This document shows, piece by piece, positions 1,708-61,861 of a DNA stretch of 64,000 nt. The position numbers were made by a program, and so were the translations under genes. The DNA comes from Arthrobacter sp. Edens01 (lineage in GTDB: Bacteria > Actinomycetota > Actinomycetes > Actinomycetales > Micrococcaceae). The stretch lies in assembly GCF_001307035.1 (NCBI RefSeq), contig NZ_LKIU01000006.1, positions 310,398 through 374,397 of the forward strand. The letters are read 5' to 3'. The notes below the pieces were generated by a model. That model was not told where the DNA came from, searched no databases, and worked only from the letters and a program-made list of their open reading frames with translations. Numbering within the stretch: the first letter of the stretch is position 1; every line of letters starts with the position of its first letter.

Positions 1708-2259
1708 CTAGAGCTGCTCGACGGTGATGCTGTTGATAACAACATCTTCGGTCGGCTTGTCCCGCATATCGGTGGGAACGGCGTTGAGCGCGTCCACGAT
1801 TGCCTTGGACTCGTCATCGGCAACTTCACCGAAGATGGTGTGCTTGCCCTGCAGCCAGGTGGTGGGAACAGAGGTGATGAAGAACTGCGAGCCGTTGGTG
1901 CCCCGGCCCATCTGGATGCCCGCGTTCGCCATTGCCAGCTTGTACGGAGTGGCAAAGTCCAGGTCCGGGCTGATCTCGTCGTCGAACTGGTAACCCGGTC
2001 CGCCCGTGCCGCGGCCCAGGGGATCGCCGCCCTGGATCATGAAGTCCTTGATGATGCGGTGGAAGATGGTTCCGTCATAGAGCGGACGGCTGGTCTTCTC
2101 GCCGGTTGCCGGATCAGTCCATTCGATCTCTCCGGTTGCCAGGCCGACGAAGTTACGGACCGTCTTCGGCGCGTGGTTGCCGAAGAGGTTGATCCGGATA
2201 TCGCCCTTGGTCGTGTGGACGGTTGCTTTTGCGGTAGGAATAGCAGTCATAACGCTCAT
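1708..2259 (-). CDS. ppiA: Peptidyl-prolyl cis-trans isomerase, cyclophilin type
   Basis: A 183-residue cyclophilin that catalyses proline isomerisation and assists protein folding. It shows the cyclophilin core: GDIRINLF, NFVGLATG, FHRIIKDFMIQGGDP (catalytic Arg, Phe and Gln), GTNGSQFFIT and KHTIFGEV. There is no signal peptide, so it is cytoplasmic, like the PpiA of other actinobacteria that sits in this origin-proximal position. The start is uncertain: ATG at 2259 or at 2250 (MTAIPTA), the latter having better ribosome-site spacing to GGAAG. It is divergent from the repeat-protein gene at 2403, with about 140 bp of shared promoter region. Confidence 0.95.
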   Translation of the reverse strand: MSVMTAIPTAKATVHTTKGDIRINLFGNHAPKTVRNFVGLATGEIEWTDPATGEKTSRPLYDGTIFHRIIKDFMIQGGDPLGRGTGGPGYQFDDEISPDLDFATPYKLAMANAGIQMGRGTNGSQFFITSVPTTWLQGKHTIFGEVADDESKAIVDALNAVPTDMRDKPTEDVVINSITVEQL

Positions 2260-2402
2260 TCTTCCACGGCGGCCTTACAGGCGGCTGGAAAACGCTCTGT
2301 TCAGCGCACAGTGAAAATCCAGTGGCTGGCAGGGCTCTGATAGCACAGAACCGGCATTGCACGTAGGCTAAGGCTGAACCGTCACTATCCTGGGAGGTAG
2401 TT

Positions 2403-3341
2403 TTGAACAAGAAGGACCGCATTGCCCGTGACTTCGAAGCGAATGTCACCGCAGGCGTGGAAACGGCGCGTGACTGGGCAACCCCCAAAGTAGAAGCAGC
2501 CGTCGGATGGGCAGTTCCCCGCATCGAAAAGGGAATCGAAACCGCCTCTCCGAAGATCCAGGACGGACTCAAGCGCGCAGCCGATGAGATCGCGCAGGGA
2601 GTCGCAGTCGTGACTCCGCGGCTCCAGGACGGCCTGCAGAAGGTCGGCCCCAGGATTAGCCAGGTTGTCGACGACGCTGCGCCGAAAATCCAGACCACCC
2701 TGGATAAGGCTTCGCCGGCCCTGACCCACGCCAAGGACAAGGTTGTGGACAGCTACATCCCCACTCTGTCCACCCGTATTGGCGACGCGGCAGATTCAGT
2801 TACGCGCAGTCTCGGAACCGCAGCTGTTCCGGTACAGACCGCCGTTGCAAAGGCCACTGGCAACAAGAAAGCCCTCAAGCAGGCTCAGAAGGCTGCTGCG
2901 AAGGCCGCCAAGGAAGCCCGGAAGCAGAACAAGAGCGGTGGCAAGGGCTGGCTCATCTTCGGCATCATCGCCTCCGCTGTGGTTGCCGGCGTAGCAGCCT
3001 GGCGTGCTTCGCGTCCGGTCGAGGACCCGTGGAAGACCCCGGCTCCGGCCCAGCCGTCTGTTCCGGTCCCGGCACCTGCCCCGGCCGCTGAAGCAAAGCC
3101 CGCCGCTCCCGCAGCCAAGGCGGCAGATACTCCTGCTGACAAGGCCAAGGACACTGCTGCTACGGCCGCTGAGAAGGCCAAGGACGCCGCCCAGACTGTG
3201 AAGGAAGCTGCTGCTTCCAACACGCAGAAGGCCGGCACCAAGGCCGCTGACGCAGCCAACAACGCCAAGGACGCCGCAGCTGCGAAGTCCGGCGGTGCAC
3301 ACGCAGACACCTCGGCCAAGGCCGACAAGCCGCAGAAGTAG
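2403..3341 (+). CDS. Membrane protein with 11-residue helical repeats and a LEA-like tail
   Basis: A 312-residue protein of unknown function. Residues 16-114 read as nine consecutive 11-residue units with the pattern x-P-(K/R)-(I/V/L)-x-x-(G/A)-(I/L/V)-x-x-(A/V), for example SPKIQDGLKRA, TPRLQDGLQKV and APKIQTTLDKA. A Lys/Ala-rich linker follows, then one transmembrane helix (about 183-200), a Pro/Ala stretch, and an Ala/Lys/Asp-rich tail (about 230-312) with units like EKAKDAAQTVKEAA that resemble group 3 LEA proteins. Eleven-residue amphipathic repeats are known in lipid-binding helices (apolipoproteins, synuclein), so membrane-surface binding is an inference. The TTG start at 2403 is fixed by a strong GGGAGG a few bases upstream. 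Confidence 0.8.
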   Translation: MNKKDRIARDFEANVTAGVETARDWATPKVEAAVGWAVPRIEKGIETASPKIQDGLKRAADEIAQGVAVVTPRLQDGLQKVGPRISQVVDDAAPKIQTTLDKASPALTHAKDKVVDSYIPTLSTRIGDAADSVTRSLGTAAVPVQTAVAKATGNKKALKQAQKAAAKAAKEARKQNKSGGKGWLIFGIIASAVVAGVAAWRASRPVEDPWKTPAPAQPSVPVPAPAPAAEAKPAAPAAKAADTPADKAKDTAATAAEKAKDAAQTVKEAAASNTQKAGTKAADAANNAKDAAAAKSGGAHADTSAKADKPQK

Positions 3342-3356
3342 GCTTTAGCTGCAGGA

Positions 3357-3389
3357 AAGGGACCGGATGCTTCAAGCATCCGGTCCCTT
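3357..3389. terminator. Shared bidirectional terminator
   Basis: A perfect palindrome with 16-bp arms around a single central base (effective loop a few bases), lying between the converging repeat-protein gene (+) and EamA transporter gene (-). The A-rich left edge and T-containing right edge suit termination in both directions. Confidence 0.8.
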
Positions 3390-3410
3390 CCGGTTTACGG
3401 CTTCGCAGGG

Positions 3411-4343
3411 TCAGCGCTCCACATCCCCGCCAAGCGCGGGCGGTGCAGGCGGCAGCGGTTCCCCGCATGGTGGGGGCGGAGTACTTTCACGCCGTTTAGC
3501 CTGGCCCAGCAGTACGACGGCGAGGCCGCCCAGGATCACAGCGAGCCCGGCGTAGGTTCCCCCAGGCAGTTCCTCGCCCAGGAAGATCGCGGCCAGGATC
3601 GCTGCCCCGGGTATTTCCAGCAGAATAATCATCGAGACAACCAGCGGGCTGATCACGGCCAGCAGGTGATTGAACACCGTATGTCCCAGCAACTGGGCCA
3701 TGAGGGTCACGCCCAGGATTCCCGCCCAGGCCGCCGGCGGAAAGCCGATGACGGGCTGCCGGAAGGCCAGGCACATAACCGCCAGTACCAGGGCGCAGAA
3801 CCCGTAGCAGAGCGTTGTATAGGTGCCCGTGGACATGGTGCGCCGGGCCTTGCCTCCGGCTATTGTGTACAGCCCGGCCAGGGCACCACCTGCCACAGCC
3901 AGCGCGTCTCCGAGCAGTGCCTGCGGCGAGAGCGCGATGTCGAACCCGGTGATGACGAGGACTCCCACGAAGGCAATGACAAGGCCGGCAAGCGTCTGTG
4001 CGGCAACCTTTCGTCCGCGGAAGACATCGAAGAGAGCAATCCACCCGGCCTGCAGGCAGACCAGAGCGGTTGCGACAGCCACGGAAGTCAGCTGCAGGGC
4101 AGTGATGAAGCAGGCGAAGTGCAGTGCCAGGGCGACCGATGCCAGGGCAGTCCAGCGCAGCTCAGTGCGGTTGAGGCTGAGGAACTGCTGCCGTCCGCGC
4201 ACTCCTGCAGGAACTCCCATGATGAGCGCTCCGAGTGCATTGCGCCAGAACGCGATGGCGAGGGCCGGTGCCGCAGTGGCGGCCATAATGGGTCCGGACG
4301 CGGAGACGCCCAGCACGCCGACTACGGCGAGGAGAAAGGTCAT
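3411..4343 (-). CDS. EamA (DMT) family transporter
   Basis: A 310-residue membrane protein with about ten hydrophobic helices in two repeated halves, the usual EamA/RhaT layout of drug/metabolite transporters. The first half carries the typical FWRNALGALIM segment; the second has LYTIAGGKARR and VFNHLLAVISPLVVSMIILLEIP, with the proline-bearing EIPGAAILAAIFLGE motif common at the end of these proteins. The substrate cannot be told from sequence. The C-terminal tail is proline-rich. The gene converges on the repeat-protein gene and lies upstream, on its own strand, of the rhomboid/cyclophilin group. No strong ribosome-binding site is seen before the ATG. Confidence 0.88.
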   Translation of the reverse strand: MTFLLAVVGVLGVSASGPIMAATAAPALAIAFWRNALGALIMGVPAGVRGRQQFLSLNRTELRWTALASVALALHFACFITALQLTSVAVATALVCLQAGWIALFDVFRGRKVAAQTLAGLVIAFVGVLVITGFDIALSPQALLGDALAVAGGALAGLYTIAGGKARRTMSTGTYTTLCYGFCALVLAVMCLAFRQPVIGFPPAAWAGILGVTLMAQLLGHTVFNHLLAVISPLVVSMIILLEIPGAAILAAIFLGEELPGGTYAGLAVILGGLAVVLLGQAKRRESTPPPPCGEPLPPAPPALGGDVER

Positions 4344-4467
4344 TAGAAGAGGTTATTCCCTGTGTGCGCCCACCGGCTGTGGCCGCGCCGTGTGCGCGGA
4401 GCCGGGGAGCGAGGGAAACCCGGAAATCCGGGCGGAATGTTCGGACTGTGCGTAAGCCGTTAAAGCG

Positions 4468-4499
4468 GAAAGTCCCGGCCGTTACCGGCCGGGACTTTC
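4468..4499. terminator. Terminator downstream of tRNA-Ala
   Basis: Thirteen-bp arms GAAAGTCCCGGCC/GGCCGGGACTTTC around GTTACC, seven bases past the 3' end of the tRNA-Ala gene on the minus strand. The AAAG/CTTT ends allow function in either direction. Confidence 0.75.
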
Positions 4500-4505
4500 T
4501 TTCGG

Positions 4506-4578
4506 TGGAGGCACGGGGACTCGAACCCCGAACCCCCTGCTTGCAAAGCAGGTGCGCTACCAATTGCGCCATGCCCCC
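4506..4578 (-). tRNA. tRNA-Ala (TGC)
   Basis: A 73-base cloverleaf on the minus strand. The acceptor arm GGGGGCA pairs with TGCCTCC (one G-U), the anticodon stem CCTGC/GCAGG holds the loop TTTGCAA with anticodon TGC, and the T arm contains GGTTCGAGTCC-type sequence. The discriminator base is A; CCA is not fully encoded. It pairs with the tRNA-Ile gene upstream, a common arrangement after gyrA in actinobacteria. Confidence 0.96.
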
Positions 4579-14464: not shown

Positions 14465-14744
14465 TGCAGGGTGCCGCCTTTCACAACGTACTTATCAGTA
14501 CTACTGAACTTTCATGAACACGCAAGGGAGCAATCGTGCTCCCTCAAAAGACAAGGCCGCCCGGCTGTCCGCCAGGGAATCACAACAATACCCTGTGCAA
14601 GCTTACCGCCAGGCGGGTTTACCCTGCACCGGCGCAGCAGGGTCGTTTGAAGGGTTGTGCAATCGCCCAAAGGCCTGCGAATCACCACTTCCCTCCCGGA
14701 TCTGGCGTTCCCGGAGAACGTCGGATGTTTGGCCCGGAAGGTCA

Positions 14745-15000
14745 GATGTTATTTGGTGGAACCCAAATTCTTAAGATTCGTAGTGTTAATAACTCCTGTG
14801 GATACTGTGGACAACTCGCTCCACTCGCCCGAATCGGCGCTTTAAGGCTGTTGATAACTTGTGGATGGCCAGCCTACGCGCTGAGGCCGGGTGTTGGAAA
14901 CTATTTTTCGGTTCCGCGTATCCACAGGGAAGTGCACGCTGTGCCGGGTTGTCCACCGAGTTATCCACACCCTTGTCCACATCTGTTAATTTCGAGCCCC
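14745..15000. other. Chromosomal replication origin, oriC
   Basis: The dnaN-dnaA intergenic region (14465-15038). An AT-rich stretch at about 14750-14795 is the likely unwinding element. DnaA boxes: reverse TGTGGATAC 14797-14805 directly abutting TGTGGACAA 14806-14814, TGTTGATAA 14849-14857, then forward GTATCCACA 14918-14926, TTGTCCACC 14949-14957, TTATCCACA 14961-14969 and TTGTCCACA 14973-14981. The mix of TTATCCACA and TTGTCCACA and the dnaA-dnaN location are usual for actinobacteria. Positions 14465-14745 show no gene. A small GCCCC/GGGGC hairpin at 14994-15010 may end dnaA transcripts. Confidence 0.92.
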
Positions 15001-15038
15001 TTCGGGGCCCTTACATCCCTGTACTGGCGCGGATTTTC

Positions 15039-20200: not shown

Positions 20201-21340
20201 GTGAGTGTGCGCGATTCTGCCGCAAAACGAATTCCCCCCTTTGCCGCGCTCGGCTCTGCCTTCTCGTCGCCTTTCTCGAGGTCTCAACCTCAGGAGGTTG
20301 TTGAAGCAGCGGGCCACTTGCCTGTTTCACGTGAAACAGGAGATGCTGTTGCAACACAGTCTGCCGGCGCATTCGATGTGCCTGATTCCGAGACCAGCGA
20401 AGGTGGTGTAGCCGGCCAGGCGGTCCTCCCGTCCGAGTCGGTAGACGTTATGGACCTGATGGACGAGAGCACACCCCTGGCCCGCGAACTGGCCAGCGAG
20501 ACCCGCCGCCGCGAGAAACTCCGCGGCCGCGTCCTGCCACGCCCCGCTGAAACCCGGATCATGACGGTGAGCAACCAGAAGGGCGGAGTCGGGAAGACCA
20601 CAACGACCGTCAACCTGGCGGCGGCCCTGGCGACAGCCGGCCTGAATGTCATGGTGATCGACATTGATCCACAGGGCAACGCATCGACGGCACTGGGAAT
20701 TGACCACCGGGCGGACGTCGAGAGCATTTACGATGTGCTCATCGAGGATCTGCCGCTGGGAAAAGTTGTGGCCCAGTGTCCCGATATCAAGAACCTGATC
20801 TGCGCTCCCGCCACCATCCATCTTGCCGGCGCCGAAATTGAGCTCGTTTCCCTCGTCGCACGTGAACAGCGGCTCCGCCGGGCAATAGATGTCTATGCCG
20901 CAGAGCGCAAGGAGGCGGGAGAGGAGCGGCTCGACTACATCTTCATCGACTGCCCGCCGAGCTTGGGCCTGCTCACCGTCAACGCTTTCGTTGCCGCCCG
21001 GGAAGTCCTCATTCCCATCCAGTGCGAGTACTACGCCCTCGAGGGCCTCAGCCAGCTGCTCAAGAACATCGAGATGATCCAGAAGCACCTGAATGCTGAC
21101 CTGGTTGTCTCAACGATTCTGCTGACCATGTACGACGGCAGGACCAATCTTGCTGCTCAGGTGGCCGCTGAAGTCCGGGAGCACTTCCCACAGCAGGTTC
21201 TCTCGGCCGTGGTTCCGCGTTCTGTCCGCATTTCCGAGGCGCCGAGTTACCAGCAGACGGTCATGACCTACGATCCTTCGTCCACGGGTGCGTTGTCTTA
21301 CCTGGAAGCAGCGGCTGAGATCGCACAGCGGTCTGTCTAG
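20201..21340 (+). CDS. parA: Chromosome partitioning ATPase ParA
   Basis: A 379-residue Walker-type ATPase that moves ParB-parS complexes. The deviant Walker A KGGVGKTTTT is at residues 127-136, Walker A' IDIDPQGNASTALGI follows, and Walker B is IFIDCPPSLGLLT. The N-terminal extension of about 115 residues is long, as in related actinobacteria, and includes an in-frame parS site encoding VSRET at 42-46. The GTG at 20201 lacks a clear ribosome-binding site, so the true start could be downstream, for example the ATG at 20450. Confidence 0.95.
   Translation: MSVRDSAAKRIPPFAALGSAFSSPFSRSQPQEVVEAAGHLPVSRETGDAVATQSAGAFDVPDSETSEGGVAGQAVLPSESVDVMDLMDESTPLARELASETRRREKLRGRVLPRPAETRIMTVSNQKGGVGKTTTTVNLAAALATAGLNVMVIDIDPQGNASTALGIDHRADVESIYDVLIEDLPLGKVVAQCPDIKNLICAPATIHLAGAEIELVSLVAREQRLRRAIDVYAAERKEAGEERLDYIFIDCPPSLGLLTVNAFVAAREVLIPIQCEYYALEGLSQLLKNIEMIQKHLNADLVVSTILLTMYDGRTNLAAQVAAEVREHFPQQVLSAVVPRSVRISEAPSYQQTVMTYDPSSTGALSYLEAAAEIAQRSV
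20324..20337. other. parS: parS site 1 (inside parA)
   Basis: Perfect 14-bp palindrome GTTTCACGTGAAAC inside the parA coding region, read as Val-Ser-Arg-Glu-Thr. It matches the universal ParB-binding consensus. Confidence 0.97.
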
Positions 21341-21441
21341 ACACTCCCTCTGGGATCCCGGCCGTTCATGAAGCCGAACCGTAGAATACTCTCACAATCA
21401 ATCCATGCCGCTTGCTGTGTGCATAAGGGAAGGACTTATCC

Positions 21442-22812
21442 ATGACCGAAAAGCGTCGTGGTTTGGGCCGTGGGCTGGGCGCGCTGATCCCCAGTACTGC
21501 TGAGTCCGTTGAAGCTAGCGAGACGGGGCAGGCTACGCGTCCTGGCCGTCCTGTAGATCTTTTCTTTACCTCGGTTGGGGATGAGGCCGGACCGGGGCGT
21601 ACGGCAGGACCGCGCCGAGGCGCCGGTATCAACAAGGATGCGTTGCGTGCCCCGGCTAAGAAGAAGCCGGCAACCCGTACAGCATCCACTCGTGCAGCAA
21701 AGTCCTCTACCAGCACGCCTGCAGAACCCTCCGCGTCGGCAGCTTCCAAGGCGGCAGCCACGGAGCCTTCAGAGGCCCTGAAACAGGATGCGGCGCCGTC
21801 CAAGGCCCGGACCAGGAAGCCGGCAGCCAAATCCTCGCAGAAGCCCTCCAGGCCCGCGCTGGAGGCACCGGAGACGGCCGTCGAGGACGAGAGGATCCAG
21901 CCTTCCGCTGCGGATGAAGTTCAGACTGAGCTCCCCGTCGACGACGCCGGGTCGGAGGACGTTTCACGTGAAACGCTGATGGAAGTTCCAGGAGCCCGGT
22001 TCGCGGAGCTCCCTATCGACTCGATCCACCCCAACCGCAAACAGCCACGCAGCGTCTTCGATGAAGACGATATGTCGGAACTTGTGCACTCCATCAGGGA
22101 GATCGGTGTTCTCCAGCCGATCGTGGTTCGTCCTTCTGCTGAAGGGGACGACGAGCACCCCTACGAACTGGTTATGGGCGAACGCCGTTGGCGCGCCAGC
22201 CGCGAGGCAGGACTGACGGCCGTTCCGGCAATCGTCCGGTCGACGCAGGACGTAGACCTGCTTCGGGACGCACTCCTGGAGAACCTCCACCGTAGTCAGT
22301 TGAATCCGCTTGAAGAGGCGGCCGCTTACCAGCAGCTTCTAGACGACTTCGAGTGCTCGCATGAGGAACTCGCCGAACGCATTGGTCGTTCCCGTCCTCA
22401 GATTTCCAACACACTGCGGTTGATGAAGCTGCCGCCGCTGGTCCAGCGTCGACTGGCAGCGGGAGTTCTCTCCGCGGGTCACGCGCGGGCACTTCTCGGC
22501 CTGAACGATCCCGCCGAGATGGAAAAGCTCGCCCAGAAGATCGTTGCCGAGGGTATGTCCGTCCGCGCGACTGAGGAAGTCGTTGCGCTATCGGATGGTA
22601 TTCGACGTCCGGCCAAGGAGTCGAAGCCGAAGGTCGGTGCTCGGCATGAGCGCCTGGATTATCTGGCGAACTCTCTCTCGGACCGGCTGGATACGAATGT
22701 GAAGATCACCCTTGGTGCTCGCAAAGGCAAGGTCAGCATTGAATTTGCCAGCGTCGATGATCTCAATCGCATAATGTCTGTCCTGAACCCCTCGGATGGT
22801 CAGGCGCAGTAG
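21442..22812 (+). CDS. parB: Chromosome partitioning protein ParB
   Basis: A 456-residue CTP-dependent DNA clamp. Residues 4-15 ([12 protein letters not shown]) form the ParA-contact motif. About 20-180 is a low-complexity Ala/Lys/Ser linker, unusually long. The N-domain starts near 187 ([17 protein letters not shown]) and has the nucleotide motif GERRWRAS. The helix-turn-helix is [18 protein letters not shown]. The C-terminus ends in the dimerisation segment. A parS site encodes VSRET at 174-178. AAGGA precedes the ATG. It ends in a terminator that contains another parS. Confidence 0.97.
21961..21974. other. parS: parS site 2 (inside parB)
   Basis: Perfect GTTTCACGTGAAAC inside parB, in the same reading phase as the site in parA, giving VSRET. 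Confidence 0.97.
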
Positions 22813-22824
22813 ATTGAACCAAGG

Positions 22825-22870
22825 GTTGGGCGGCTGTTTCACGTGAAACGGCCGCCCAACTTCTTTTAAC
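22825..22870 (+). terminator. parB terminator enclosing a parS site
   Basis: Arms GTTGGGCGGC (22825-22834) and GCCGCCCAAC (22851-22860) flank T, parS and G, so the RNA can form an almost uninterrupted 18-bp stem. TTCTTTTAA follows. It lies 12 bases past the parB stop. Confidence 0.85.
22836..22849. other. parS: parS site 3 (in parB terminator)
   Basis: Perfect GTTTCACGTGAAAC forming the top of the terminator stem. Confidence 0.98.
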
Positions 22871-22964
22871 GTCGCTAGCGTGGGTGAGGCACGACTGGTG
22901 ACTCCCGAGACTGAATCACTGCTGCTACTCGAATGTTTACCGTCAACGGGGATAGAAGTCTCAT

Positions 22965-22978
22965 GTTTCACGTGAAAC
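22965..22978. other. parS: parS site 4
   Basis: Perfect GTTTCACGTGAAAC, 129 bp from site 3, the closest pair in the array. Confidence 0.98.
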
Positions 22979-23299
22979 ACGATAGAGCCTATCTACGAGG
23001 GGGGTGAGCAAGACAGTCGTGTTGAGTCCCTTCATACGCTTCGGACGGCCCTCGCTTTATCTCCCGCTCACCAATCTTGGCTGGATAAAGCGGCTCGGTT
23101 TTGGATGGATCGCTTTCTCGGAGCGCATTCAAGCGGCTTACGGTCCATCACATGGCCGCTCATTCGATCACAAGACGGTCGCGGTCCTGTGCTCAACACC
23201 CTGGAGCAGCCACCAGATACCTCTTGGGCGATACATGGTGGCCGGACAGAGAGGAGTTGTCTCTCGATGTGACTTGTTTGGCCGCCAGATGGCCTTGAG

Positions 23300-23313
23300 G
23301 TTTCACGTGAAAC
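23300..23313. other. parS: parS site 5
   Basis: Perfect GTTTCACGTGAAAC in non-coding DNA. Confidence 0.98.
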
Positions 23314-23738
23314 AGCGTCTGTTCAGCAGAGAATGACACGTCCCGCGCTTCCGGCTGTCTGTTACGGTCCTCAGCTCCACTACACACCGACCGGCAATCG
23401 AGGGTAGGCCGCTGCAAACTCCCGGCTCTGCGGGTCAGCAAACTTTGCTAAGTCGTCTCTAACAAACGCACCATTGGCGCTTCCGCCACGCTGAGAACTC
23501 GCCTGGTCCGTGTCCCTCTGGGAGGACAGAAGGAGCCGAATGCGCCGAGGACTCGTGTAACAAACGTTCGGGGTTGTGTGGTAATGCCGCCAGGAGTCTC
23601 GATCGGGATGGTCCACGCGGCCATAAGACGCAGCTAAGCGACTGCCGGGCGGCTCGACTTCACTTGGTAGAACTACGTGTCGCAATACTGGGTTTGTCCT
23701 CTATTGGTCGGGGCGTTTCCGCCGGCCTGTGGACACAC

Positions 23739-23752
23739 GTTTCACGTGAAAC
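23739..23752. other. parS: parS site 6
   Basis: Perfect GTTTCACGTGAAAC in non-coding DNA. Confidence 0.98.
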
Positions 23753-24226
23753 GTTGGTGGGCCTGTGCTGATCGGACGAGGGTACGGCCCTTTCAAGTCT
23801 CCTGTTCTCTGGTAGTCGGCGTCTCGGATGGAACCGAAACCCGTGAGTGCCCACACGGGCAGGGTGCTGGACAGCCGGGAAGTACGCTCTGCGCTGAGGC
23901 TCGTATCGGATTGCCTGTACGCTGAGATCCGATAGTCCCCATTGTGCCTGCTACGGATAGAAGTTGGAGCTCCATGTGACTCGCATGGTGACTGCCTTTG
24001 CCTGTGAGTCCGGGTATTGCGGCGTCTGGGCGAGCTGGCTGGGCAGAGGTGATAGCTGTCGAAGATCAACAAGACCTGGGCGTGAGAATGTCCTTCCGAC
24101 TTTCTTATTCGTCGCCCACGTAGGCTGCACTCCTCCGGAAGGTGCTAAAGCCTGGTGCTCTCGCGGAACACTTTCGTCGGCATATCCTTTGGTCCGAGGC
24201 ACGGTCTGTGACGGAAGGCCGTCCCT

Positions 24227-24240
24227 GTTTCACGTGAAAC
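24227..24240. other. parS: parS site 7
   Basis: Perfect GTTTCACGTGAAAC in non-coding DNA. Confidence 0.98.
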
Positions 24241-24526
24241 ACGATCCACTGTGGTCTCCTCTAGGGCTGCTATCACTCCTTCCAGCCAGTTCGACGCTCT
24301 GTGCACCGTTCAGTAATCCACTTGAACGAGATCCTCAAGGTCGGGGTGGGGTGGACGCCTAGCCTTCAAGCCGGTTGCTTATGTGGTCCAAAGGCCTTTA
24401 TGTCTGCATCTATGGAGGGCACGAGCCGCCTGATATCGAGCTATGCACACGAAGTGGTCGGCGGGAACGGCGTTGTTGCTCCAACTACGAGGGATACGCG
24501 GGACCGCCCCTGCTCTAAAGGAGCGT

Positions 24527-24540
24527 GTTTCACGTGAAAC
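24527..24540. other. parS: parS site 8
   Basis: Perfect GTTTCACGTGAAAC in non-coding DNA. Confidence 0.98.
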
Positions 24541-25695
24541 GGGACGGCCGCGATCGGGATCGGGATGAGGGCGGAGCTCACGTCTCGCGTTCTGCGCAGC
24601 ATAACCGCAAGGTGACGAACTCGCTGAAGGGTAACTTAGAGACGACGGGTGCCCGGACGCCAGGAACATGTACGTGTCCCCACACTTGTCGGAACTAGTA
24701 TTCTCCACGCCTCAGCCACAGAAGCCCGATGACAGTCCGACCGGACCGGGAAGTCTGGTCTGGAATCGAAGACCCTGTACGCCATGGGCAGTGGCTCTGA
24801 ACGCCTCTAGCCCTAACCGCACCGCTGGGATGACGACTCCCAGGAGGCGGAAGCGTCGACCGGAGGGCAGCTGTCTTATCGTCCACCCTGCTCCGACGAC
24901 CTAGCTTGCCCTGACAAACCACGACGTACTCAAGGGCGGAAACCCGCGCTGTCGAATGGGCGGCGACGAAACACTTTGTGTTCCCGATTAGAAACGGGAC
25001 AACACAACTCGACTGCTTCGTACACGCCAGGAACGTCGCATACGGGAATTCAGTGTCATGCCGGCGTACCCGTAGAAACCGCTCCTTCCCGGTTTCGTGG
25101 AACTATCCCCGCGTGGGACCAACGACGACGAAATCAGCTCGCCGCGGTTTTGGCCAGGACCTGCACGACGTTGTTGACTGTGCGGGTTCAGAGCGAATCT
25201 CCGCGGATGGTGTTGCCTATTGCCTGCTACCGCAGCAGGTTGGATCCGTACCTGCGCTACCAGACCTTCGGTATGTTGCAGACCGCGGCATAGAGCAACC
25301 TCGTGTCTGCTTGGACCCTCCGCATGCGGCCGTGCTTTGTCTCGAAGGCGGATGAGAGATTCACGTCTGGGCGTCTCTATGGGATCAGAAGGTCATCGGC
25401 GTCCGCAATGTATTTTCTTTTTGGGGGGTGTATTCGCTCGCGGTTCAAGGAAGCGGGATCATTCATAAAGCGATCTACTTGTGGGCGCCGAGTATCCTGC
25501 TCCCTTCCGAGAGTCTGCAGCGCGTGAGCCGAGCCCGACTCTCCCGAGACTCCGACGAAGCGTGAGCAAGTTCGCTGTTATTGCGTTGTCACGGACTGCC
25601 ATCTGATGGTCGCGACGCCGCGTGCTGTTGCCGGTATAGTCCGGCCGAAACAAACGGAGATTGCCCAGGGACTCTCCTTGCGGAGTTCGCACGCT

Positions 25696-25709
25696 GTTTC
25701 ACGTGAAAC
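25696..25709. other. parS: parS site 9
   Basis: Perfect GTTTCACGTGAAAC, the most distal site, about 1.17 kb from site 8 and 250 bp before the GNAT gene. Confidence 0.98.
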
Positions 25710-25958
25710 CGCGCAAGCCGGCGGCGTGGAGGCGACAGGCCATGAGCGTGGTCCTGCTCTGGCAAACAGACGGACCGCCGAAGTGCTGAAGCCAAAAACA
25801 CTGATCGAACGAACCCACATGGTGGCTCTGCCACCTGTGGACCGCAGCGAAAGCTTCGACTAAGGTCCAGCCAGTGTCAGAATCCAGCTCTCCGAAGGCA
25901 GACTGACGTATCGCCGGAAGCCTCATTTTCGTACGGAACGCCGACAGGAAGGCAGTTC

Positions 25959-26537
25959 ATGTCCCGCAAAGAAGCCAGCGCTGCGGCCTTCGTTCTCCGC
26001 CGTCCCGAACCCGACGATGCCGATGAGCTGGCCGCCCTGCACGTGCAAACGTGGCAGGAAACCTACGACCATCTTCTTCCCGCCGGTTTCTTCACATCCG
26101 AATTCCTGGACGGCAGGTTGAGGTTATGGCAACACCTGACGTCGGCGACGGGCGGCGCCCGCTTAGTCCGACTCGCCGAGGTCGCCGAAGGAAATACCGG
26201 CGCGGTGGGGGAGGAATACCTCCACAAGATTGTCGGCTTCGCAGTAGCCGGGCCGGACACCGAGTCAGGTGACGGCAAAGACAATCGTCAACTGTTTAGC
26301 CTCTATGTGCTGCGCCGGCTTCACGGCACCGGAGTAGGGCAGACACTGCTCGATGAAGTGCTGGGCAAGGAGCCCGCCGTGCTTTGGGTGGCAAAGGACA
26401 ACCCGCGGGCGGTGGCTTTCTACCGGCGGAACGGGTTTGAGTTCGACGGAACGGTAAGGTCAGACCCGGCGGCACCGGGACTGGTAGAGTGCCGGATGCT
26501 GCGCCCGTCAATGCTGCGCCCGTCAATGGTTCGCTGA
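25959..26537 (+). CDS. GNAT family N-acetyltransferase
   Basis: A 192-residue acyl-CoA-dependent acetyltransferase of unknown substrate. The fold is clear: LRRPEPDDADELAALHVQTWQETY at the start, a central strand ending in LFSLYVL, the acetyl-CoA loop RRLHGTGVGQTLLDEVL, and the late NPRAVAFYRRNGFEFDG motif. The WQETYDHLLP segment is typical of a subgroup that often acts on small amines. The end shows a 15-base tandem duplication encoding MLRPS twice (26497-26526). AGGAAGG lies 7 bases before the ATG. It converges on the regulator gene at 26569. Confidence 0.9.
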   Translation: MSRKEASAAAFVLRRPEPDDADELAALHVQTWQETYDHLLPAGFFTSEFLDGRLRLWQHLTSATGGARLVRLAEVAEGNTGAVGEEYLHKIVGFAVAGPDTESGDGKDNRQLFSLYVLRRLHGTGVGQTLLDEVLGKEPAVLWVAKDNPRAVAFYRRNGFEFDGTVRSDPAAPGLVECRMLRPSMLRPSMVR

Positions 26538-26568
26538 GGCGGTGACGCAGGAGCCCATTCGGTTTGGC

Positions 26569-26868
26569 TCAGGACTCTTCCTGGAAGGTTCCGGACACGA
26601 TTGTTTCGAGGGCGCGAATGTGGCCGCGGTATGCCCGTGATCCGGCCTTGGTCAGGCTCAACCACGTCTTCCTGGAATCCAGTTCCCCACGTTCCTGCCG
26701 CACATAACCGGCTTCGACCAGTGCGGCTACCTGCTTGCTGAAGGCTGAAGGGGACAACCCCAGGTGAGCTCGCAGTACGGATGACTCCACCGCCGTACCT
26801 GCGTCGAGCATCGCGCACAGCTGCAACCGGTAGAGCGGGTGTATGACCGGATCAAGCACAGGGTTCAT
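26569..26868 (-). CDS. Winged-helix transcriptional regulator (MarR/ArsR-like, PF13601 type)
   Basis: A 99-residue single-domain regulator. It starts NPVLDPVIHPLYRLQLCAML, with helix-turn-helix VLRAHLGLSPSAFSKQVAALVEAGYV and wing RQERGELDSRKTWLSLTKAG, the pattern of the small winged-helix group PF13601. Its ATG overlaps the stop of the membrane-protein gene upstream (ATGA), so the two are co-translated. A pair of inverted operator-like sites lies at the start of that operon (27283-27327), which suggests autorepression; the ligand is unknown. Confidence 0.85.
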   Translation of the reverse strand: MNPVLDPVIHPLYRLQLCAMLDAGTAVESSVLRAHLGLSPSAFSKQVAALVEAGYVRQERGELDSRKTWLSLTKAGSRAYRGHIRALETIVSGTFQEES

Positions 26869-27290
26869 CGGCGGGTCGCCCGATAGTGGAAAACGGAACC
26901 CGTTCCGAAACTCAGCACAGTGCCTGCAGCACAGACCCAGACAAGCCCCCACATTCCCGCCCAGGACGCCGCGAGGGAGGCAACCACGAACAACGTGGAG
27001 AGCACCACAGCCACGATAAATACCCGGCAGCGCGGGACAGCGAACGGCAGGCCCATCCTGGACCCCGCCCAGTAATTGAAGGCGCAGGCGGCAACGACCA
27101 GAACAGCCAGGAGTCCACTGCCGGGCCTGCCCAGGAGCGGGAGCAATGCAGAGACGCCCAGGAATAGGCCGTTGGAGACGTACAGCCACCACGGCCAGGG
27201 CTGGCTGCGGATTGAGTCCTGTGCACTCTGCGCCGCCGCCAGCGCGGCGGATGCCTGGCTACGGTTCGGGATCGGCGCATTAGTTTCCAT
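26865..27290 (-). CDS. Membrane protein paired with the winged-helix regulator
   Basis: A 141-residue protein with four predicted transmembrane helices after a polar N-terminus (METNAPIPNRSQASAALAAA). Segments are WWLYVSNGLFLGVSALLPLLG, GLLAVLVVAACAFNYWAG, FIVAVVLSTLFVVASLAASW and MWGLVWVCAAGTVLSFGTGS. No family is recognised; small membrane partners of PF13601 regulators are common in actinobacteria. ATG at 27290 is used; a second ATG at 27302 is possible. Neither has a ribosome-binding site, so the transcript may be leaderless. The start codon lies inside an operator-like repeat. Confidence 0.75.
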   Translation of the reverse strand: METNAPIPNRSQASAALAAAQSAQDSIRSQPWPWWLYVSNGLFLGVSALLPLLGRPGSGLLAVLVVAACAFNYWAGSRMGLPFAVPRCRVFIVAVVLSTLFVVASLAASWAGMWGLVWVCAAGTVLSFGTGSVFHYRATRR

Positions 27291-27327
27291 GGCGGAAACC
27301 ATACGGCAAAGTTTCCGCCATGGAAAC
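27283..27327. promoter_or_regulatory. Double operator-like inverted repeat
   Basis: GTTTCC-ATGGC-GGAAAC at 27283-27299 and GTTTCC-GCCAT-GGAAAC at 27311-27327. Each is a GTTTCC-N5-GGAAAC palindrome, and the two are exact inverses of one another with centres 28 bp apart. They cover the start codon of the membrane-protein gene. Binding by the winged-helix regulator encoded in the same operon is inferred. Confidence 0.75.
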
Positions 27328-27416
27328 CATTGGACGCATGAAACGTCGGCAGTGATGCGTTGGAGACGCCAGCGGGACCAGACCAGTGGGCCGAAGGCCG
27401 TCCGCGGGCCCGGGTG

Positions 27417-28598
27417 CTAGAGCCCGGAAACCCGGCGGCGGTCTTCTACGGGGTTGAAACGGCTCACGTCGTCCAAGGCCAGCGTCCCGGTGGGCTGGTC
27501 TTCCTCTTCGAGGAGATATAGCCGCTGAATGGCAATGACGATCGAATCCGCGAGTGTTTGGCGGAACACCGGATCAGCCAGCCGGTGGGCGTCATGGAAA
27601 TTGCTCAGATAACCCAGATCAATTCCCACGGAGGGGATACCGGGCAGCTTCAGGGTGTCCCAGGTGCGGGCGTGAACCCCCAGGTTGGCCATATCCGTAC
27701 GGGCTGCGAGTTCCTTCATCATGAGGATCGCTGCTCGCTGCCCGATGGGGGAGCGGGGTTCTCCCGTAACCGGAAGGCCCCAGTAGTATGCCGCCATGCC
27801 CGACGCGGCGGGCTGGTCCAGCCAGTCGCAATGGATGTTTACGTTCAGGCTGGGAGAGCGGCCGGAGACAGAGGCGGCAGCGGCGTCGTACTCCACAACC
27901 TCAGCTCCGAATTCACCGAGGATCCGTTCCACGCGGGCCCGGACGTCGGAAGCCACCAGCAGCTCGGTCAACGGCTGGCCGGTGAGGCGTTCGGTGACGT
28001 GGGCCGAGGAAATCTCCGACCGGCCCGTGTTAAGTGTGATGGTGCGGCCGCGCAGGGCGGCCGTGGAACGGTCAAGGCGCTCGTAGTCACGAAGCGCGAA
28101 GGCCTGGCTGGGGGAGATGGCCCGGTTGACCCGCGACATGGCCGTCATGGTGTCCCCGTCGCACACGCCGGTGCCCGGAATGCCGAGGTTCTCCTGCAGC
28201 TCTGCCACGGCATACCGTGTCCGGATGCCAAACTCGCCGTCGATATGGCCGTAGTAAAAGCCCAGGTGGGAGAGGTGCCGCTGGAGTTCGGCGACGTCGT
28301 CTCCGCGTACTGCCGGCTGGTCTTCCACGAACTCAAGAACGCGGTCACCGAACCGGAACTGCGCCTCTGCCAGAGCACGCTGGGTATCGGGACCCGCCAC
28401 CCCGTCGACAATCAGGCCCCGGCTTTGCTGGAAGGCACGGACTGCCGCATCCACATGGTCGTCAAAGAACGCGGCGTTATTTACTGAATCGGGAGCGAGG
28501 TAGGACATGGAAATGCCGGCCCGCAGCAGCGCTTCACGAAGCGCCACCACGCGCCGGCTGGAGTCCAGCCTCCGCAGACTCTCGTCCGTCGGATGCAT
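27417..28598 (-). CDS. cwlM: CwlM-like N-acetylmuramoyl-L-alanine amidase homologue (probable pseudo-enzyme)
   Basis: A 393-residue protein with two peptidoglycan-binding repeats (about 15-75 and 85-155; DGVAGPDTQRAL and DGEFGIRTRYAV) and an Amidase_3-type domain (about 185-365). Two of the usual active-site positions are changed: the first zinc histidine of DPGHGG reads NTGRSE, and the catalytic glutamate before GFISN reads GIDLGYLSN. NIHCDW keeps the other histidine. In mycobacteria CwlM, in the same place next to trx, regulates MurA rather than cutting the wall. A regulatory role here is inferred from that and from the lost residues. No signal peptide is present, which fits a cytoplasmic protein. 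Confidence 0.85.
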   Translation of the reverse strand: MHPTDESLRRLDSSRRVVALREALLRAGISMSYLAPDSVNNAAFFDDHVDAAVRAFQQSRGLIVDGVAGPDTQRALAEAQFRFGDRVLEFVEDQPAVRGDDVAELQRHLSHLGFYYGHIDGEFGIRTRYAVAELQENLGIPGTGVCDGDTMTAMSRVNRAISPSQAFALRDYERLDRSTAALRGRTITLNTGRSEISSAHVTERLTGQPLTELLVASDVRARVERILGEFGAEVVEYDAAAASVSGRSPSLNVNIHCDWLDQPAASGMAAYYWGLPVTGEPRSPIGQRAAILMMKELAARTDMANLGVHARTWDTLKLPGIPSVGIDLGYLSNFHDAHRLADPVFRQTLADSIVIAIQRLYLLEEEDQPTGTLALDDVSRFNPVEDRRRVSGL

Positions 28599-28607
28599 AG
28601 TGGGGAC

Positions 28608-28934
28608 CTACTTCAGGTAGGCCGCGAATTCCTGCTCAAGGACCTGCTTCGGCTTCGCGCCGATAGACGTGGCCGCAACCTCACCGCCCTTGAAGACGTA
28701 AACAGCGGGGATGGAGGTGATGCCGTACTTGGCCGCGATAGCGGGGTTGTCGTCAACATTGACCTTCACGACGTCGACCTTGTCCGAGTACTCGGCGGCG
28801 ATGTCGTCCAGGATGGGGGAAAGCATGCGGCACGGACCGCACCATTCGGCCCAGAAATCCACGATTACCGGCTTGTCGGCAGCCAGCACATCGGTGCTGA
28901 ACGAGGAATCCGTTACGTCTTTGGCGTTGCTCAT
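28608..28934 (-). CDS. trxA: Thioredoxin
   Basis: A 108-residue thioredoxin with the active site WCGPC at residues 31-35 (FWAEWCGPCRMLSP), the cis-proline in SIPAVYVFKGG and a full fold. It passes electrons from thioredoxin reductase, encoded just upstream, to target disulfides. ATG at 28934 is fixed by AAGGAG about 8 bases upstream; a longer frame upstream runs into trxB and is not needed. It lies 22 bases after trxB and 9 before cwlM, an operon. Confidence 0.97.
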   Translation of the reverse strand: MSNAKDVTDSSFSTDVLAADKPVIVDFWAEWCGPCRMLSPILDDIAAEYSDKVDVVKVNVDDNPAIAAKYGITSIPAVYVFKGGEVAATSIGAKPKQVLEQEFAAYLK

Positions 28935-28956
28935 AGTTCTTGCTCCTTGTGGATCT

Positions 28957-29991
28957 CTAGACGGAAGCGTTTTCGGAAACGGTTTCCGACGCCGGGGTGG
29001 GAACGGTGGCAGCGGTCGCGGCGGAGGCGACGTCTGCCAGGTAGTGCTCGACGTCGAGCGCAGCCACGCAGCCGGAACCGGCGGCGGTGATGGCCTGGCG
29101 GTAGGTCGGGTCGATGACGTCTCCTGCGGCGAAGACACCCGGCAGGGAGGTCTTCGAGGTGCGCCCCTGGACGGCGATGGTGCCGGCCTCGGTCAGCTCC
29201 AGCTGTTCGCGGACCAGGTCCACGCGGGGATCGTTGCCGATCGCTACGAAGATGCCGGTAACGGCCAGCTCGGACTCGGCCCCGTCAACCGTGTTGCGCA
29301 GGCGCACGCCGGTGACCTTGTCTTCGCCGTGGATTCCAATAACCTCGGAGTCCCAGACGAAGCGGATCTTTTCGTTTGCCAGGGCACGATCCTGCATGAT
29401 CTTGGAGGCGCGAAGGGTGTTACGGCGGTGCACGATTGTTACCGAGGCAGCGAACTTGGTCAGGAACAGTGCTTCTTCCAGCGCCGAATCGCCGCCGCCG
29501 ATGACTGCAATGTCCTGGCCCTTGAAGAAGAAGCCGTCGCAGGTTGCGCACCAGCTCACGCCGCGGCCGGACAGCCGCTTTTCGTCTTCAAGTCCCAACT
29601 CGCGGTACGCAGAACCGGTGGAGATGATCACGGAGCGGGCCAGGAAGGTCTCCCCGGTGCCGATGGTGACCTTCTTGATATCTCCGGTCAGGTCCACCGA
29701 GGTGACGTCCTCGAAGAGGATTTCGGTGCCGAAGCGGTCTGCCTGCTTCTCGAGGCCTGCCATCAGGTCCGGGCCCATGATGCCTTCGGGGAAGCCCGGG
29801 AAGTTCTCCACGTCAGTGGTGTTCATCAGCTCGCCACCGGCGGTAACCGAGCTGGCGATCAGCAGCGGCTTGAGGTTCGCACGGGCCGTGTAGATGGCCG
29901 CGGTGTATCCGGAAGGACCGGATCCAACGATGATGACGTCACGGATTTCCGGGACGGATCCAGCGGCGTCGGGGCGAATTTCTGTGCTCAC
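28957..29991 (-). CDS. trxB: Thioredoxin-disulfide reductase
   Basis: A 344-residue flavoenzyme that reduces thioredoxin with NADPH. FAD motif IVGSGPSGYTAAIY, redox pair CATCD (WCATCDGFFF), NADPH motif VIGGGDSALEEA and the closing GVFAAGDVIDPTYRQAITAAGSGC are all present. The last 30 residues are an Ala/Thr/Glu tail. The GTG start at 29991 (VSTEIRP) is preferred, with AAAGAGG about 10 bases upstream. Confidence 0.97.
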   Translation of the reverse strand: MSTEIRPDAAGSVPEIRDVIIVGSGPSGYTAAIYTARANLKPLLIASSVTAGGELMNTTDVENFPGFPEGIMGPDLMAGLEKQADRFGTEILFEDVTSVDLTGDIKKVTIGTGETFLARSVIISTGSAYRELGLEDEKRLSGRGVSWCATCDGFFFKGQDIAVIGGGDSALEEALFLTKFAASVTIVHRRNTLRASKIMQDRALANEKIRFVWDSEVIGIHGEDKVTGVRLRNTVDGAESELAVTGIFVAIGNDPRVDLVREQLELTEAGTIAVQGRTSKTSLPGVFAAGDVIDPTYRQAITAAGSGCVAALDVEHYLADVASAATAATVPTPASETVSENASV

Positions 29992-61269: not shown

Positions 61270-61861
61270 TACGCCGCGCACTGCGTGATACACAGCGCCC
61301 CCCGCCGTTTCCGGCGGGGGGCGCTGTTGCGTTCGGCACACGTTTAGACCTGGTGAAGGACATTTTTCGGGTCTCATAATCCCAAGCGGGCTTACCAACA
61401 CAAGTAGTCCCCAGTAGTTCACAGGTATGTGGATATCTGCTGTGGATAATGGTCTCCGTATGCCCATTCCCGTGATCTGTCAACCTGAAGGCTGTGGCTG
61501 AATGTTGGGGAAAATAGTTCACTGTGCACAGGTGTGGACGGGTGTTTTGCCTAGTCAGAGTCATATTATGGCAGAAACTAATTTGTTATCCACAGCCTTA
61601 TGCCCAGCCTGTGCACAAGACACGCCCACTTATGAACAGGCTATCCACAAGGCCTGTGGATAACTCGTTTGTTGAGGGGGCCTCACGGGGCTACGGTTGC
61701 GGTGGACTCCCTCATCGGCGCACCGGGAATGGTATCGGCGGGGGCACGGCGGGCAGAAGCCCCATTGTCAGTGCCGTCGGCTAGAACGTAGCCAGCCATA
61801 CACACCTCCGGATCTGCCTGACGGGACCGGAGATAGAACGTTTTTTGGAAAGGGTGGCCCC
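61270..61861. promoter_or_regulatory. DnaA-box cluster upstream of dnaB
   Basis: No gene is seen in this gap. DnaA boxes: TGTGGATAT 61428-61436 (1 mismatch), TGTGGATAA 61441-61449, TTATCCACA 61586-61594, CTATCCACA 61641-61649 (1 mismatch) and TGTGGATAA 61655-61663. The last two face each other as TATCCACA-N5-TGTGGATA. Several further two-mismatch boxes occur. The AT content rises at 61500-61610. It lies 200-430 bases before dnaB. Control of dnaB by DnaA, or DnaA sequestration, is inferred. Confidence 0.75.
61292..61327 (+). terminator. Terminator of rpsF-ssb-rpsR-rplI operon
   Basis: Sixteen-bp perfect arms ACAGCGCCCCCCGCCG/CGGCGGGGGGCGCTGT around TTTC, 22 bases past the rplI stop. Confidence 0.85.

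Follow-up and report, generated by a model that had tools for sequence, protein, structure and literature searches.

A gene-free array of evenly spaced parS sites downstream of parB in Arthrobacter, with its first site nested in a terminator-like hairpin

The chromosome-partitioning genes parA and parB of Arthrobacter sp. Edens01 lie in a 64,000-nucleotide stretch of contig NZ_LKIU01000006.1 (positions 310,398 to 374,397), hereafter the window, and are followed by 3.1 kb of gene-free DNA that carries seven perfect copies of the 14-bp parS palindrome. The array recurs after parB throughout the genus, its sites are spaced more evenly than random placement would give, and the first of them forms the core of a covarying hairpin just past the parB stop codon. 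We consider it fairly probable that this interval is the centromere of the chromosome, i.e., an insulated platform for the loading of ParB clamps (and of SMC) in which even spacing is kept and from which genes are kept out.

A dense parS array in noncoding DNA

The window was scanned with the palindrome GTTTCACGTGAAAC, for perfect matches and for matches with up to three mismatches. Nine perfect copies were found within 5,386 bp, counted from the first to the last base, and these nine are all the perfect parS sites of the 3.64-Mb genome (10 contigs). Elsewhere in the genome there are three places with one mismatch and five with two (reversed-pattern control, 6). With up to three mismatches allowed, the window yields 10 matches versus 1.81 expected, a number reached in none of 100 shuffles. 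Seven of the nine sites lie inside 22813-25958, the interval from the parB stop to the open reading frame (ORF) of a GNAT acetyltransferase, and two lie in the frames of parA and parB (Table 1). The initial annotation had described seven perfect sites in a gene-poor stretch of lower GC content and two further sites in parA and parB, nine per 5.4 kb, and this arrangement was recovered in full. The GC fraction of the interval is 0.584 versus 0.613 in parAB and 0.635 downstream; the dip is small but general, being seen relative to downstream DNA in all 29 genomes of the genus set described below and relative to parAB in 26 of them.

The interval is noncoding by every test that we tried. Its longest ORF is of 132 amino acids, versus 188 +/- 46 from a second-order Markov model, and it holds 24 ORFs of at least 60 amino acids where about 20 are expected. 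The power at period 3 is 0.85, as against 18.5 in parAB and 25 in the downstream genes, and a coding model trained on the loci made one weak call in the gap, an 85-amino-acid ORF at 7 bits. A Pfam scan (E <= 0.1) of 28 ORFs of at least 60 amino acids, 25 of them in or overlapping the gap and three downstream, returned 14 families, of which the GNAT ORF alone gives 3 and the MarR-type regulator ORF alone 10; the remaining family is a chance-level match (E 0.086), and ten gap ORFs rescanned singly against Pfam had no match. NCBIfam returned 15 families for the same 28 ORFs, with one member each and a best value of 3e-7; the members are unnamed in the table, and these families fit the GNAT and MarR-type ORFs, as assigned by family and not by single scans. 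Rfam has nothing in the gap and two tRNAs elsewhere in the window, and a sigma-70-like promoter scan of 21400-29200 found none, with 1.7 expected. These results bear out the earlier description of the interval as a dedicated noncoding parS zone.

The same holds for relatives of the window. In the 28 other genomes of the genus set, 118 ORFs of at least 115 amino acids from the apparent gaps match eight Pfam families (E <= 0.001). At that threshold, no match was returned for the 75 ORFs that precede the final parS of their array or run across it (28 arrays); every match is therefore to an ORF on the far side of that site, examples being an HTH_34 regulator in locus L104 (3.7 kb past parB) and a fragment of a deacetylase in L127 (3.4 kb). 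Because the matching ORFs lie there, gap lengths are to be read as upper bounds. The longest ORF of most genus gaps is ordinary for random sequence.

Conservation of the array in the genus and family

The genus search covered 29 genomes, the parB region being fetched for the 28 other than the window's own. This comparison, which the initial annotation had proposed, places an array after parB in all 29, with 5 to 11 perfect parS in each, and in every case the perfect-site count of the fetched parA-parB-array region equals the total for the whole genome. A perfect parS is found at a like place in parA in 27 of the genomes, and 17 have one in parB, 842-851 bp ahead of the stop codon. The gap has a median length of 3218 bp (range, 1746-4532); the safer measure, which runs from the parB stop to the final parS in the gap, gives 1646-3908 bp. 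Elsewhere in the genus regions, neighbouring called genes lie a median of 66 bp apart (n = 154; 95th percentile, 636), and one of the 154 distances is at least 1746 bp. Neither homologous proteins in the interval nor relatives in which the region is coding and parS sites are few appeared in the genus.

A wider view is given by 73 named loci of another collection (L001-L073), many of them from the same species. Among the 70 that include parA, the fetched flank holds a site farther than 200 bp upstream of the ParA match in just four, from Flexivirga, Dermacoccus, and Janibacter (two loci); the other 66 have none. The array is downstream of parB in Arthrobacter sensu lato. It is mainly between parA and parB in Zhihengliuella, Kocuria, Yaniella, Enteractinococcus, Citricoccus, Galactobacter, and Pseudoglutamicibacter, where it takes up 1.2-4.6 kb with no gene called by the coding model; in one Micrococcus, one gene is called between parA and parB. 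Glutamicibacter and Paeniglutamicibacter are without such an array and have few sites, scattered over several kilobases. Loci like that of A. crystallopoietes (L013, L019, L021, and L026) have larger arrays, with 10-13 sites in 4.3-5.4 kb; these consist mostly of GTTYCACGTGRAAC variants and so escape searches with the exact consensus. The label "no array" on 13 rows of our tree was accordingly rejected: for the loci checked, it is an artefact of the exact consensus, GTTYCACGTGRAAC variants being present, and counts of gain and loss from the first tree labels are unusable for the same reason. In a number of loci (L023, L027, L040, L057, L062, L064, L067, L068, and L073), the array parts parA from parB by about 1.7-2.6 kb. 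Very long gaps in other genera are upper bounds, since the coding model misses atypical genes (the GNAT gene of the window itself scores 9 bits). The possibility that rRNA operons fill these gaps was rejected for six such loci, which have no Rfam match.

Even spacing of sites and unconstrained spacers

Spacing was assessed in all arrays with at least four sites by comparing the coefficient of variation (CV) of the intervals with that of uniform placement in 2,000 draws. The 29 genus arrays have a mean CV of 0.516 versus 0.790 for uniform placement, none of the draws being as low, and both extremes are depleted: intervals shorter than a quarter of the mean make up 4.7% versus 18.4% expected, and long intervals 4.7% versus 12.9%. 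Twenty-one other downstream arrays behave alike (mean CV, 0.430 versus 0.776; 0 of 2,000 draws as low), again with short and long intervals depleted. The 13 arrays between parA and parB are weakly even (0.649 versus 0.796; 29 of 2,000 draws as low), and the lowest CVs, 0.23-0.47, belong to Yaniella-type loci. Arthrobacter-type arrays and the dense parA-parB arrays are thus strongly characterized by even spacing. Such spacing is not a rule of the whole family, because the sites of Glutamicibacter and Paeniglutamicibacter are clustered; in loci of this type (L032, L042, L043, L044, L047, L048, L049, and L059), the few parS stand in tight pairs or triplets.

The letters between the sites tell a different story from their lengths. 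The genus gaps, 95,322 bases in all, contain 177 perfect sites and 22 with one mismatch, versus 0.0 expected of each on a Markov background, and 14 of the 22 are Y/R variants. Spacer identity is 0.44 (shuffled control, 0.46) where fourfold-degenerate sites of parB are 0.73 identical, and 0.56 at a fourfold identity of 0.80. Opposite cases are the pairs L115/L116, with 0.58 at fourfold sites and 0.63 in the spacers, and L128/L131, with 0.48 and 0.56. The spacers thus appear to diverge roughly as fast as synonymous sites do, with some pairs above and others below that rate. As judged from these sequence comparisons, selection acts on the sites and leaves the spacer sequence apparently unconstrained, in a neutral-like manner.

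A parS site in a hairpin at the 3' end of parB

In the window, complementary arms flank the first parS of the array, and the resulting stem-loop past the parB stop, with its T tract, has a predicted RNA fold of -33 kcal/mol (z, -5.2; matched in 0 of 200 shuffles). Among the 60 sites no farther than 60 bp from a parB stop (58 loci), 47 reach a flank-pairing score of at least 6; the same score is seen at 19 of the 344 other gap sites and at 0.9% of random positions. Five first sites in the genus, 87-127 bp past parB, also reach this threshold. A parS hairpin follows parB in 26 of the 29 genus genomes, and 90-nucleotide folds with z < -3 are found in 13 of 29 windows at the 3' end of parB versus 3 of 87 windows at other parS.

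The pairing is supported by covariation in an ungapped alignment of 55 distinct loci, in which ten arm pairs were compared with 500 shuffles. All ten pairs have changed on both sides, 86.5% of cells pair versus 63.6% when shuffled, and the covariation score is 0.547 versus 0.160 (0 of 500), falling to 0.09-0.21 when the arms are slid. Good stems, defined as having six or more Watson-Crick pairs of ten, are found in 40 of the 55 rows. In these, G-U pairs number 9 and the mirror-image A-C combinations 0 (p = 0.004, on small numbers); over all 55 rows, the counts are 31 and 20. At least four T within the 10 nucleotides past the stem are seen in 31 of the 40 and at least four A before the stem in 13 of the 40, the gap background being 16%. 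Because of the G-U bias and the T-rich tail, selection appears to be on the strand of the parB transcript, as would be expected of an intrinsic terminator at which parB transcription ends. Like intrinsic (Rho-independent) terminators, it has a GC-rich stem soon after the stop codon and a T-rich tail and tolerates G-U; unlike them, its loop and loop-proximal stem are parS, which places two signals in one element.

With a model of the hairpin, matches were obtained in 93 of 149 order genomes (E <= 0.001) and 35 of 198 phylum genomes (E <= 1e-4), counts that are upper bounds because plain parS also scores. Loci were inspected among the matches listed, 30 for the order and 28 for the phylum, in a descriptive manner with no null for closeness to gene ends; parS with long complementary flanks stand near the locus centre in L135-L158 (order search) and L162-L171 (phylum search). 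In the inspected loci, parS-centred stems follow homologues of parB, thioredoxin, dnaA, or dnaN or stand in the jag-gidB interval; seven related actinobacterial genomes of 7-10 Mb also have such stems.

The parAB locus and its surroundings

The dnaN and dnaA genes (minus strand; NCBIfam) are followed in the window by yidC, jag, gidB, parA, and parB, which is the order of a canonical origin region, and the genome also encodes SMC (905 bits). The parB translation shows a GERRWR motif, which we take to have a role in CTP binding. In a quick ParA/ParB tree, with several long branches, the window falls beside Arthrobacter koreensis, A. citreus, and A. gandavensis. On the far side of the array, the first gene that scores above 15 bits is convergent to parB in all 29 genus genomes. 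The GNAT gene has no tblastn match in the 28 other genus regions, and the right edge of the array therefore looks variable; the GNAT and MarR-type genes (25959-27192) score poorly under the local coding model. Away from the dnaA-dnaN region, DnaA-box-like 9-mers (mostly TTATCCACA, with up to one mismatch) cluster at 49-604 of the window, with nine in 556 bp, and again at 61441-61663, with four in 223 bp; both clusters are possible DnaA-titration or regulatory sites.

Table 1. Features of the origin-proximal partitioning region, in window coordinates
Feature	Coordinates	Strand	Remarks
Likely oriC, dnaA-dnaN intergenic	14465..15038		DnaA-box-like 9-mers at 14806, 14949, 14961, 14973; ~8 kb from array
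parA	20201..21340	+	Pfam AAA_31 1.9e-55; matched in relatives; start uncertain (coding score prefers 20318)
parS in N-terminal part of parA frame	20324..20337		Perfect match
parB, 456 amino acids	21442..22812	+	Pfam ParB_N, HTH_ParB, ParB_C; NCBIfam TIGR00180 parB_part above cutoff
parS in parB, in-frame reading V-S-R-E-T	21961..21974		Perfect match
Gene-free parS array zone	22813..25958		3146 bp; coding tests, Rfam, and promoter scan all empty
Terminator-like hairpin with parS core	22825..22867	+	Stem 22825-22860, tail TTCTTTT 22861-22867
parS 1 of array	22836..22849		Perfect match; 24 bp past parB stop, within hairpin
parS 2 of array	22965..22978		Perfect match
parS 3 of array	23300..23313		Perfect match
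parS 4 of array	23739..23752		Perfect match
parS 5 of array	24227..24240		Perfect match
parS 6 of array	24527..24540		Perfect match
parS 7 of array	25696..25709		Perfect match
GNAT acetyltransferase, right boundary of array	25959..26537	+	Pfam Acetyltransf_1 2.9e-10; coding score only 9 bits
HTH_34/MarR-type regulator	26569..27192	-	Pfam; convergent to parB
N-acetylmuramoyl-L-alanine amidase	27417..28598	-	First gene >15 bits coding score past array; convergent to parB

Discussion

In other species, ParB is known to load at parS as a CTP-dependent clamp, which then slides (PMC7053999, PMC8299390, PMC9242446). The setting in the window is that of a ParABS centromere: several parS about 8 kb from the likely oriC, adjacent parA and parB genes with canonical domains, and a genus-wide array with no protein or known RNA gene between its sites. 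If ParB of Arthrobacter acts likewise, ParB-CTP dimers would load at each parS and slide into the adjoining spacer, thereby freeing the site for the next dimer; the packed array would then recruit SMC and be pulled by ParA. On this model, selection would maintain the site count and an even distance between sites (median, about 350 bp), leaving open DNA beside each for loading, and seven sites with a few hundred base pairs of such DNA each would give a high loading flux and a holding track clear of RNA polymerase. Genes would be excluded so that RNA polymerase does not sweep the clamps off. The interval would be kept transcriptionally silent by the parB terminator built on the first parS on one side and by the inward-pointing first well-scoring gene on the other.

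Several observations weigh against this interpretation. A single parS gives near-normal growth and segregation in Corynebacterium glutamicum (PMC7083940), and ParB can pass roadblocks in vitro (PMC9242446), so a gene-free interval need not be required. The noncoding character of the zone has its outliers: in L129 none of 60 simulations, and in L126 almost none, produced an ORF as long as the longest of the gap, both of these ORFs starting beyond the last parS, and in L019 a 191-codon frame on the minus strand, 160-735 bp after parB, is called coding within the array zone. In the window itself, the GNAT gene is transcribed away from the array, as an exception to the convergent rule, and because it points that way its promoter is probably at the right edge of the array. 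With regard to the hairpin, 3 of the 29 genus genomes are without a strong one, as it is weak in L127 and absent in L130, and the parS has decayed in L109; in the last of these, the stem just past the parB stop is intact and encloses a parS core with two mismatches, a pattern to be expected of a stem that has its own function. Two of the five covariation measures, namely, both-side-changed pairs and pair types, are not above shuffles, and a generic terminator scan of 21400-29200 did not list the parB hairpin. The spacing signal is also uneven across the family: 4 of the 13 parA-parB arrays (L037, L038, L058, and L065) are uneven, and the eight Glutamicibacter-type loci are clustered, with a CV of 1.013 versus 0.717 (1,999 of 2,000 draws at or below the observed value) and 43.8% of intervals short versus 17.2% expected. 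Finally, the uniform null ignores the shared ancestry of the arrays, which makes the spacing p values optimistic.

Some of these points invite other explanations. One is that the cluster is passive, with parS copies multiplying by local duplication or point mutation, tolerated only near the origin, and with no selection on spacing or on the lack of genes; the spacers would simply be DNA that is undeletable without the loss of a site. A self-reinforcing clustering of parS near a native site has indeed been proposed (PMC7333895), and the unconstrained spacer sequence and the uneven Glutamicibacter-type and parA-parB loci fit it. We nevertheless hold it to be unlikely, since the 29 genus arrays and the 21 other downstream arrays are more even than random, with short and long intervals both depleted, and since the arrays of the 28 relatives are free of Pfam-matching ORFs even though other intergenic distances in these regions are short. 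A mutational origin of the spacing, in which slippage or the instability of inverted repeats removes close pairs of palindromes and leaves the separated sites, would account for the rarity of intervals under a quarter of the mean. However, deletion of close pairs does not predict the depletion of long intervals, and close pairs persist in the Glutamicibacter-type loci, which renders this account less likely still. Least probable is that the interval hides small genes, a noncoding RNA, or decayed genes. The ORFs of at least 60 amino acids that do exist in the gap, at a near-chance number, and the eight Pfam families matched further right in other genomes are what could be adduced for it, whereas the random-like ORFs, the missing 3-base periodicity, the empty Rfam search, the lack of a convincing family for any gap ORF of that size or of a Pfam match for ORFs in or straddling the relatives' arrays, and the loss of spacer conservation beyond near relatives all speak against it.

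Within the centromere interpretation, a more specific proposal can be entertained, to which we give somewhat less than even credence. In it, the first parS would be a bifunctional boundary, where one 14-bp palindrome serves as a ParB loading site and as the core of the parB terminator, such that the edge of the transcription unit is also the edge of the centromere; in the Arthrobacter lineage, this would be combined with a centromere defined by geometry, in which the lengths of the spacers are fixed but not their letters. ParB loaded at this site may also tune the 3' end of its own gene, and the parS-centred inverted repeats seen beside other genes and in the 7-10 Mb genomes suggest that parS nesting in terminators could be widespread among actinobacteria.

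Dense parS clusters are already known, and comparison with them delimits what is distinctive here. The hairpin around the first site, the nonrandom spacing, and the unconstrained spacers are features that the initial annotation did not mention. It had called the zone unusual: the description of it as dedicated and gene-free stands, but such zones are not unusual within the family, occurring in Arthrobacter sensu lato and several genera of Micrococcaceae, and a cluster of 22 parS in about 3 kb has been published for Myxococcus xanthus, about 4 kb upstream of parA (PMC3899335). On the points compared, the latter resembles the window array in being dense, about 3 kb long, and near parAB; it differs in having 22 sites and thus being far denser, in lying upstream of parA, and in its consensus, TGTTCCACGTGGAACG. 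Corynebacterium glutamicum likewise has an actinobacterial region with multiple parS, which load ParB and SMC, but its 10 sites, 9 of them intergenic, are spread over 35 kb at 73 kb from oriC (PMC7083940), in contrast to the 5.4 kb adjoining parB with a gene-free core seen in the window. The five strongest parS of Caulobacter crescentus fall within 5 kb (PMC5815017), a similar total span at a like distance of about 8 kb from ori; these sites, however, are within essential or costly genes, whereas seven of the nine in the window fall in DNA free of genes. One of the parS sites of Mycobacterium bovis BCG overlaps not a terminator but a promoter, located upstream of gidB (PMC2346475). In the open-licence literature of PubMed Central, we found no description of a gene-free, evenly spaced, genus-conserved parS array, nor of a parB terminator with covarying arms that encloses a parS. 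The 2007 parS survey of Livny and co-workers may list Arthrobacter sites. What appears to be new here, as far as sequence can tell, is the even, gene-free array across a genus and the placement of parS in the hairpin.

A review of the field (PMC7333895) treats as an open question why parS form clusters and what determines how many there are. The arrays described here form a natural series in which sequence, spacing, and position vary independently, with even spacing in Arthrobacter and clustering in Glutamicibacter-type relatives, and this makes the roles of spacer length, transcription, and site number in the loading of ParB directly testable. More generally, the nesting of parS in a covarying, terminator-like stem would tie the boundaries of the centromere to the boundaries of transcription.

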